Assembly (NCBI RefSeq): GCF_030409335.1
Contig: NZ_JAUFPN010000172.1
Coordinates: 1 to 41,501 of the forward strand
Source: Paeniroseomonas aquatica
GTDB taxonomy: Bacteria; Pseudomonadota; Alphaproteobacteria; Acetobacterales; Acetobacteraceae
Length of the DNA: 41,501 bases
Reading direction: 5' to 3'
Position 1 is the first letter of the stretch. Each line of letters starts with the position of its first letter. Below the pieces are notes generated by a model. The model was not told the origin of the DNA. It saw only the letters and a list, made by a program, of their open reading frames with translations, and did not search any database. A program made the translations under genes and the position numbers. Shown here piece by piece: positions 27,333-36,136 of this stretch.

Positions 27333-29648
27333 GTGACCAGCGCCGACTCCCCTGCCGCGGGCGATGCCAGACCCGATCTCGACGCCTGCGACAACGAGCC
27401 CATCCGCATCCCGGGAGCGATCCAGCCGCATGGGGTGCTGATCGCGCTGTCGCAGCCCGACTTCCTGGTCGTGGCGGCGAGCGCCAACCTCGGCGATGTC
27501 GCCGTGGTTGCCGCCGCCGCGGTGACCGGGCAGCCCGCGGCCGTGCTGCTCGACACGGAGACGCTGGAGCATCTGGGCACCCTGCTGCGCCGGGGCGATG
27601 CCGACGGCAGCGGCACCCTGCTTCCCCTGCGCTTCCTGGCCGATGCCGCCGGCCGCCTGCACCGCGCCTGGATGCACCGCCACGACGGGCTCGTCATCCT
27701 CGAGATCGAGATCGCCGGCGAAGCCGGACCGCCGGCCGGGATCGCCGGCGGCCTGTTCCTCGCGCTCTCCTCGGCGATCGAGCGCCTGCAGGCGGCGACC
27801 GACCCGGATGCCCTCTGGGCCCAGGCGGTGCGGGAGATCCGCCGCTTCACCGGCTTCGACCGCGTCAAGCTCTACCGCTTCCAGCCGGACTGGAGCGGCG
27901 AGGTCGTCGCCGAGGATCGCGCCGAGCACATGCCCGGCTTCCTCGGGCTGAACTTCCCGGCCTCCGACATCCCGGCGCAGGCGCGGGCGCTCTATGCGGT
28001 CAACCCGACCCGGATCATCCCCGACGTCGGCTATGCCGCCGTCCCCCTGCTGCTCGGGCCCGAGCGAGCCGGCCGGCCGGTCGACCTCAGCTTCGCGCAG
28101 CTTCGCAGCGTCTCCCCGGTGCATCTCGAATACCTGCGTAACATGGGGGTCGCCGCCTCCATGTCGGTCTCGGTGCTGCGCGGCGGCGAGCTCTGGGGGC
28201 TGATCGCCTGCCACCACGACCGGCCGCTGCACGTCACCGCCGAACGCCGGCAGGCCTGCCGGTTGCTGGCCCAGGTGCTGGCCTGGCAGCTCGCGGTCGC
28301 CGAGGAGGCCGCGGTGGCCCGCCACAGCGCCGAGGTCCGGGCGCTGCAGGCCCGGGTGCTGGAAGAGACGGCCCGCGGCCACGACCACCGCCAGGCCATC
28401 CTGCGCCATGCCAACGAGCTGCTCGCCCTGATGCAGGCCTCCGGCTTCGCCCTGGTCACCCCGGACGCGGTGACCCTGATCGGCGCGACGCCGGACGAGG
28501 CGGCGACCCGGGACCTCGCCCTCTGGCTGGCGGGGCGGGAGGACGCCGCGGCCAGCTTCGAGACCGACCGGCTGGGCGTGTTCTACCCGCCCGCCCAGGC
28601 CTTTGCCGCGCTGGCGAGCGGCGTCCTGGCGGTGCCGCTGTCCCGCCCGCCGCGGCAGATGATGATCTGGTTCCGGCCCGAGGTGGCGCAGACCGTCACC
28701 TGGGGCGGCGATCCGCGCAAGCCGGTCGAGCCCGCCCCGGACGGCGCCGACCGCCTGACCCCGCGGCGGTCCTTCGCCGCCTGGAAGGAGACCGTCGCCG
28801 GCCGCTCGCGGCCTTGGCAGCCGCATGAGCTGGTCGCGGCCGGGGAGCTGCGCGACCTGGTGCTCGACGTGCTGGTGCGGCGGGCCGAGGAGCTGGAGCA
28901 GATCAACATCCAGCTCGCCCGCAGCAACGAGGAGCTGGAGGCCTTCACCTATGTCGTCTCGCACGACATCCGGGAGCCCCTGCGGCAGATCGAGACCTTC
29001 GCCAGCATGCTGGAGCGCGTCGTGGGCGGCGGGACCGCCGCGCCGGGCGGCCGCATCGGCCGCTGGGTCGAGGGCATCGAGGCCTCGTCCCGCCGGCTGC
29101 GCACGCTGATCGACGACCTGACCGAATTCTCCCGGCTCGGCCGGCATGCCCAGCCGATGGCGCCGGTCGCGCTGGGGGAGGTGCTGGTGGAGGCCGAGAG
29201 CGATCTCGCCCAGGCCATCGCCGAGGCCGGCGCGGCCGTGGTCCTGGCCGCCGACCAGCCTGTCCTGCTCTGCGACCGCGGCCAGATCCGCCAGGTGCTG
29301 CAGAACCTTCTCTCCAACGCGATCAAGTATCGCCACCCCGGCCGGGCGCCGCGGATCGTCGTCGCGCTGGCGCCGGAGCCGGCCGAGGTCCCGCCGCGCC
29401 GCCGCCCGATGCTGCGGGTGAGCGTGACCGACAACGGCATCGGCTTCGACCCTCGCTACGCCGCCCGCATCTTCGAGCCCTTCCAGCGCCTGCACGGCGC
29501 CGACCGCTATCCCGGCAGCGGCATCGGGCTGGCGATCTGCCGCAAGATCGTCGATCGCCACGGCGGTGTCATCGGCGCCGAGGGCCGGCCGGGCGAGGGG
29601 GCGACCTTCTGGTTCACCCTGCCCGCCGCGCCGGGGGGGCTGCCATGA
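27333..29648 (+). CDS. bphP: Bacteriophytochrome (red/far-red light-sensing histidine kinase)
   Basis: 771 residues from GTG 27333 (the preceding ATG is followed by a stop). PAS domain about 19-125: Cys19 in LDACDNEPIRIPGAIQPHGV is the biliverdin-attachment Cys of bacteriophytochromes (as Cys24 of the Deinococcus protein). GAF domain about 140-305 has FPASDIPAQARALYAVNPTR and the chromophore-pocket Asp. PHY domain about 320-500 has the tongue motif PRRSF (LTPRRSFAAWKE). The kinase part has His544 in VVSHDIREPLRQIETFASML, the N-box LLSNAIKYRHPG and G-boxes VTDNGIGFDP and YPGSGIGLAICRKIVDRHGG. It should be cytoplasmic. No heme oxygenase gene (bphO) is adjacent, so biliverdin must come from elsewhere. 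It overlaps the next gene by 4 nt. Confidence 0.96.
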   Translation: MTSADSPAAGDARPDLDACDNEPIRIPGAIQPHGVLIALSQPDFLVVAASANLGDVAVVAAAAVTGQPAAVLLDTETLEHLGTLLRRGDADGSGTLLPLRFLADAAGRLHRAWMHRHDGLVILEIEIAGEAGPPAGIAGGLFLALSSAIERLQAATDPDALWAQAVREIRRFTGFDRVKLYRFQPDWSGEVVAEDRAEHMPGFLGLNFPASDIPAQARALYAVNPTRIIPDVGYAAVPLLLGPERAGRPVDLSFAQLRSVSPVHLEYLRNMGVAASMSVSVLRGGELWGLIACHHDRPLHVTAERRQACRLLAQVLAWQLAVAEEAAVARHSAEVRALQARVLEETARGHDHRQAILRHANELLALMQASGFALVTPDAVTLIGATPDEAATRDLALWLAGREDAAASFETDRLGVFYPPAQAFAALASGVLAVPLSRPPRQMMIWFRPEVAQTVTWGGDPRKPVEPAPDGADRLTPRRSFAAWKETVAGRSRPWQPHELVAAGELRDLVLDVLVRRAEELEQINIQLARSNEELEAFTYVVSHDIREPLRQIETFASMLERVVGGGTAAPGGRIGRWVEGIEASSRRLRTLIDDLTEFSRLGRHAQPMAPVALGEVLVEAESDLAQAIAEAGAAVVLAADQPVLLCDRGQIRQVLQNLLSNAIKYRHPGRAPRIVVALAPEPAEVPPRRRPMLRVSVTDNGIGFDPRYAARIFEPFQRLHGADRYPGSGIGLAICRKIVDRHGGVIGAEGRPGEGATFWFTLPAAPGGLP

Positions 29649-36136: not shown

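Follow-up and report, generated by a model that had tools for sequence, protein, structure and literature searches.

Photoactive yellow protein (PYP), phytochrome and kinase are brought together in Ppr of Rhodospirillum (Rhodocista) centenum and in other PYP-PHY-kinase fusions, as they are at a locus of Paeniroseomonas aquatica that lies within a stretch of 41,501 nucleotides, analysed as a whole and called the window here. Nevertheless, Ppr is one fused protein, whereas the window has separate ORFs on opposite strands and a PYP that does not group with those of Ppr in the tree. A bacteriophytochrome kinase accompanied by a stand-alone receiver gene is likewise found in PhyB1/RphyB (4r6l, 4zyl) and in Cph1/Rcp1, and the sole notable sequence difference between these systems and the window pair is the pyp neighbour of the latter.

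The available parts of PMC12826048 describe HisKA/HATPase genes upstream of pyp, and those of PMC9664959 describe histidine kinases in pyp neighbourhoods; a separate kinase gene directly upstream of pyp is also what the window contains. No common docking domain is named in those parts of the two papers, whereas the constant part in the clade of the window PYP is a C-terminal PAS_5-like domain, referred to here as CT, which is shared across kinase types. The same portions of PMC12826048 count 52 PYP-PHY fusions and report no pyp operon with a phytochrome, with which the window is not in contradiction because its phytochrome is convergent, and they regard the signal chain of PYP as an important knowledge gap. 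Among the titles and abstracts listed by literature searches on PYP and pyp context, none dealt with a CT-like partner domain, although one may be tabulated elsewhere. One PYP clade has, on varied carriers, a companion domain of about 170 residues, which makes a concrete candidate receptor for tests of direct binding, and CT in this role would make the missing partner of PYP testable.

Architecture of the locus

A sequence-only reading had described four ORFs in two coupled pairs, with two 4-nt overlaps and a convergent gap of 16 nt between the receiver gene end and pyp, and all of these are present in the sequence on the strands described. Its domain assignments and gene coupling were borne out by Pfam scans and ORF positions, and CT was absent from its description of the kinase. 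The features are as follows.

27333-29648, + strand: bphP, bacteriophytochrome histidine kinase, 771 aa, GTG start (ORF and domain search)
29645-30118, + strand: stand-alone receiver (RphyB/Rcp1-like), 157 aa, 4-nt overlap with bphP
30135-30521, - strand: W-type pyp, 128 aa, with Tyr42, Glu46, Ser50 and Cys69 retained and Pro68 replaced by Ser
30518-36136, - strand: hybrid sensor kinase, 1872 aa, 4-nt overlap with pyp
30521-31039, - strand: CT, C-terminal PAS_5-like domain of the kinase, candidate PYP partner
31073-31381, - strand: receiver domain of the kinase, aa 1586-1688
31469-31825, - strand: HATPase_c of the kinase, aa 1438-1556 (domain search and motifs)
31952-32146, - strand: HisKA of the kinase, aa 1331-1395, His box GGVAHDFNN
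32300-34936, - strand: PAS array of the kinase, approximate limits, about aa 401-1279, the last PAS placed by eye
35183-35938, - strand: Cache-like N-terminal region of the kinase, aa 67-318 (dCache_1, 23.3 bits against a cut-off of 45)

The kinase, for which the gene-calling script would also allow a start at 36010, thus runs from a weak Cache-like N-terminus, below the cut-off, through the PAS array, HisKA, HATPase_c and receiver to CT. Fourteen ORFs of the window were scanned for domains, including the four locus genes, and the neighbours among them seem to have no connection with light; they comprise a luciferase-like oxidoreductase and a metallohydrolase as well as formate dehydrogenase-like, ribosomal S1-like and EPSP-synthase-like proteins. 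The genome of the window also contains two PF00124 reaction-centre matches, one heme oxygenase match and seven PHY matches, two of the latter being pieces on contig C245.

A divergent clade of PYP

The small ORF is recognised as PYP by TIGR02373 with 78.5 bits, under the 143-bit cut-off of that model, and by its sequence it is a divergent PYP and no member according to the NCBIfam equivalog cut-off. Its best solved match is the PYP domain of Ppr (1mzu), and in a Foldseek search with its AlphaFold2 model (pLDDT 89.3) the best 41 rows were all PYP or PYP-derived, with TM up to 0.88 on the query. Cys69, Glu46 and Tyr42 are in place in the alignment.

In a tree of the window PYP and 46 others, it belongs to a group of 22 rows, of which 20 are W-type and two Cys-less (support 100/99), while the Ppr, canonical, GGDEF-linked and other PYPs are on the opposite side. 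The W-type label does not strictly denote one branch, as the Cys-less pair nests among W-type rows. These two relatives (L054 8187-8561 and L141 6594-6974) form a sister pair and are without Tyr42, Glu46 and Cys69, as seen from the alignment for the former and from the sequence for the latter. Glu46, Ser50 and Cys69 are kept in all 21 W-type rows, and residue 42 is Tyr in 17, Phe in three and Asp in one, a disrupted copy from Dankookia rubra. Other positions have changed: Asn43, Arg52, Phe79 and Phe96 are altered in most W-type PYPs, with Gly96 in 18 of the 21 and Phe at position 79 in none. The two Ser50 PYPs reported in the available parts of PMC12826048 absorb near 432-434 nm, which gives a weak guide to colour. 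Plasmid records searched with the window PYP yielded five matching records, and none covered 80% of the query.

A C-terminal domain that accompanies W-type pyp

CT comprises about 170 residues past the receiver domain of the kinase and narrowly matches PF07310 (PAS_5) with 23.7 bits against a gathering score of 22. The CT of G076 scores 14.9 bits and that of G209 gives no match, and no CT from the other 10 genomes was reported by the PF07310 search. No solved relative emerged from a sequence search with the CT profile, and by fold there were only weak PAS/LOV matches with TM about 0.4.

Profiles of CT and of the PYP were run against 397 family genomes. The CT profile gave 26 matches in 19 genomes, 20 of them of at least 130 bits (strong), and the PYP profile gave 15 matches of at least 140 bits in 12 genomes, the next one having 115 bits. 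Fourteen of these 15 pyp genes adjoin CT; the fifteenth, in G368, runs off the end of a contig, and the CT of that genome is truncated in the same way. In G271, pyp is split across two contigs, on which no CT is present over 10.5 and 12.3 kb, and the CT kinase of this genome is elsewhere, which makes it the one exception among the 15 assessable W-type pyp genes in the 397 genomes (14/15 with adjacent CT). A strong CT was found in 13 of 13 family genomes with W-type pyp compared with 16 of 397 overall; since the genomes are related, the significance of this contrast is a guide only. A class-level sample of 385 genomes, including that of the window and four family members, added a single W-type PYP with 195 bits and a single strong CT with 161 bits, which are neighbours in G740; the next CT among the matches listed in E-value order was on contig C269 of the window's own genome (97 bits), followed by matches of at most 83 bits. 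Finally, among 21 named PYP loci, 10 were W-type, five repeating surveyed genomes and five being new (two from Dankookia rubra, and one each from a Rubellimicrobium MAG, Sphingomonas sp. PsM26 and Skermanella aerolata); CT adjoins pyp in all five new ones, and in 0 of the 11 non-W-type loci in the sequence stretches examined. In the second Dankookia rubra copy (L104 9194-10378), kinase and CT are broken by frame changes, with CT spread over two frames, and Tyr42 has become Asp, by decay or sequencing error.

In 17 of 19 tabulated loci, the pyp start is placed between 55 nt ahead of the CT stop and 56 nt past it; the outliers are G099 (141 or 150 nt) and one G382 copy (491 nt). This recurrence of the kinase-pyp pair, as a pattern of gene order, supports a functional link. 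In G143, reaction-centre genes resembling pufL/pufM lie about 5 kb away from the W-type pyp (L038, G143:C1 2500000-2517000).

Seen from the CT side, 14 of the 20 strong CT genes adjoin pyp, one lies at a contig edge, and five, in G161, G271, G266, G121 and the second copy of G143, are without pyp in the flanks examined, so that exclusivity of CT to pyp neighbourhoods was rejected. Orphan CTs have the same signature as other CTs, and CT may therefore have other uses. Comparison of 18 pyp-linked with 9 orphan CT rows revealed no clear pyp-specific residues, and for this reason no interface can be proposed. Five of the six weaker CT matches are apart from pyp, and the sixth is a 28-bit remnant directly upstream of pyp in G204. 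In that genome (L042), pyp has the remnant (9282-9500) on its upstream side and an intact CT kinase (10169-14920) on its downstream side, an arrangement that looks like replacement of the partner; the same genome has no PHY and no PF00124 match.

Carriers of CT and the proposed action of PYP

According to Pfam scans, CT carriers differ in the domains ahead of CT, and they include hybrid kinases of the HisKA type, HWE kinases, a single kinase in which no ATP-binding motifs are recognisable, and a kinase-free protein of 204 aa. HWE carriers occur in G099 and in one of the G382 loci, each being followed by pyp and then by a receiver gene. The G143 carrier keeps its His box but lacks the usual D and G motifs, and Pfam gives neither HisKA nor HATPase_c; the loss of its N box was judged by eye, as the search pattern missed the window kinase too. 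The 204-aa protein, another G382 carrier, has a hydrophobic start and no Pfam family, and its gene overlaps pyp. A paralogous kinase of G076 that is in the same cluster but does not adjoin pyp is without CT.

From the observed gene layout, the PYP fold with its key residues, the CT domain and its linkage to W-type PYP over several kinds of carrier, we lean, with no great confidence, towards a reading in which the window holds two separate two-component systems placed tail to tail and PYP acts in trans on the neighbouring kinase via CT. The soluble W-type PYP would dock on the C-terminal CT of the kinase and, once photoexcited, would alter kinase or receiver output, while the N-terminal Cache/PAS sensors would bring other signals to the same kinase, and the phytochrome would be a local neighbour and no required part. 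Physical docking, light dependence and the direction of control are what we infer for this pair. If true, this would amount to a blue-light switch made of two proteins, one that has already been transferred between kinases in the course of evolution. The wider proposal that CT is a transferable PYP receptor domain, and that in this clade any carrier of it, be it a HisKA hybrid, an HWE kinase, a degenerate kinase or an anchor without kinase, gains blue-light control by PYP as a soluble, light-dependent ligand, is possible but more tentative.

The sequence-only reading had suggested that PYP could act on the PAS array of the kinase. Such action on the array, or elsewhere on the kinase, with CT hitch-hiking as, for example, a dimerisation or metabolite-sensing PAS, would be in keeping with the long PAS array of the window kinase and with the orphan CT kinases that have no pyp. 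Nevertheless, the array is missing in the 204-aa carrier and variable in others, while CT remains beside pyp, and we consider this alternative improbable. CT is favoured over the array because the kinase type and the remaining protein vary among pyp-linked partners while CT stays constant.

Chromophore supply

In the genome of the window, neither a recognisable tyrosine ammonia-lyase (PF00221 search) nor a PYP-type p-coumaroyl ligase (PYP-linked ligase query) was found. The single PF00221 enzyme has a Ser-His motif, which we take to be typical of histidine ammonia-lyase, and the best match to the PYP-linked ligase has 46 bits. Among 11 W-type genomes, six have no PF00221 match, and three (G209, G143 and G086) have a ligase match above 200 bits. 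These observations, together with the altered residues 43, 52, 79 and 96 and the sister pair that has lost Tyr42, Glu46 and Cys69, would suit a W-type PYP that is not a p-coumarate photoreceptor here and that, as an apo protein or with another ligand, regulates the kinase without light.

Against this stand the retention of Glu46 and Cys69 in 21 of 21 W-type rows and of Tyr or Phe at position 42 in 20 of 21, and also a PYP-type ligase of 42% identity encoded tail to tail with W-type pyp in G086, a genome in which at least one of the two PF00221 enzymes lacks the Ser-His motif. Moreover, the control genome G006, which has four PYPs that pass the NCBI cut-off, has a best ligase match of 49 bits, which is not strong either, and ligase absence by this query is consequently weak evidence. 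According to the available parts of PMC12826048, a lyase gene is present in 5% of pyp operons. A light-independent role of the W-type PYP seems rather unlikely, and light-dependent action via CT, against which the missing chromophore enzymes count, is retained as the preferred reading.

The neighbouring bacteriophytochrome

The domains of BphP are PAS_2-GAF-PHY-HisKA-HATPase_c and the adjoining gene encodes a single-domain receiver, the composition of a bacteriophytochrome with stand-alone receiver. Its closest solved full-length relatives are 4r6l/8uph (PhyB1 type), and the best solved relative of the receiver is RphyB (4zyl, E 4.7e-42), with RcpB, RcpA and Rcp1 following among the best nine rows. 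The two proteins would form a PhyB1/RphyB-like red/far-red phosphotransfer pair, separate from the PYP-kinase system.

The 11 surveyed genomes contain 45 phytochrome genes (47 matches, two pairs merged), of which 42 were taken for a tree, those on G209:C55, on G258:C238 and on G086:C12 near 659 kb being omitted. With four Ppr loci of other genomes the input had 46 rows, and after three with fewer than 380 aligned residues (L180, L192 and L019) were dropped, 43 remained. In this tree, the window BphP groups with two tandem phytochrome pairs (support 100/99), L158 and L163 of G258:C233 and L160 and L169 of G076:C174. One member of these tandem pairs is followed by a receiver 52% identical to that of the window.

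The sequence-only reading had suggested a two-colour sensor, and a joint control of one output by BphP and PYP, in which separate genes take the part of the single Ppr protein and the signals converge on either the hybrid kinase or the stand-alone receiver, would fit the 16 nt between the tail-to-tail neighbours, the existence of Ppr fusions in the same genus (G036, G121 and G245) and a second genome, G258, in which a phytochrome ends 42 nt from the pyp stop. The four-gene arrangement is partly repeated there, which falls short of the complete absence from relatives that would speak against the sequence-only reading: the phytochrome is convergent with the kinase-pyp pair, but it is a PAS-GAF-PHY protein with no kinase, and the stretch examined gave no receiver match. 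It groups with a short phytochrome of G099 and not with the window BphP (100/99). Two short phytochromes that pair in the tree (L105 10427-12163, a 578-aa ORF, and L181 1030-2745, a 572-aa frame) leave no room for a kinase.

Thus, in the flanks examined, a phytochrome adjoins the pair at only two of the 14 W-type loci from 11 genomes, and the two phytochromes are of different clades, so a conserved four-gene island was rejected and the two-colour unit is not upheld. Phytochromes within 2 kb of the 14 pyp loci numbered two, with 0.038 expected (P 0.0007), in a count for which two loci had one flank shorter than 2 kb (1552 and 176 nt); without the window, whose selection was based on this feature, the count was one in 13 loci against 0.034 expected (P 0.034). 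Convergent genes are, in addition, not co-transcribed, and W-type PYP is not close to the PYP of Ppr. The window encodes no PYP-phytochrome fusion, and the candidate explanation of its PYP as a detached Ppr domain was rejected on its place in the tree. For these reasons, joint two-colour control appears quite unlikely, and two separate systems, with PYP acting via CT, remain our preferred reading.

A second candidate partner domain

The GGDEF-linked PYP clade possibly has its own partner domain, an N-terminal one of about 120 aa, unlike CT, that was seen by eye (FLYxxPxG...NPxxxQxLxPL). It is shared by the following proteins, all encoded beside PYPs of this clade.

L043 1399-2670, L044 8782-10125, L045 1838-3160, L046 488-1831, L047 9208-10893, L050 7810-9105 and L052 5766-7733

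The GGDEF/EAL-linked PYP clade may follow a similar rule, with partners that share this other domain; where scanned, the outputs of the neighbours of GGDEF-linked PYPs are GGDEF, EAL or GGDEF-HisKA-HATPase.
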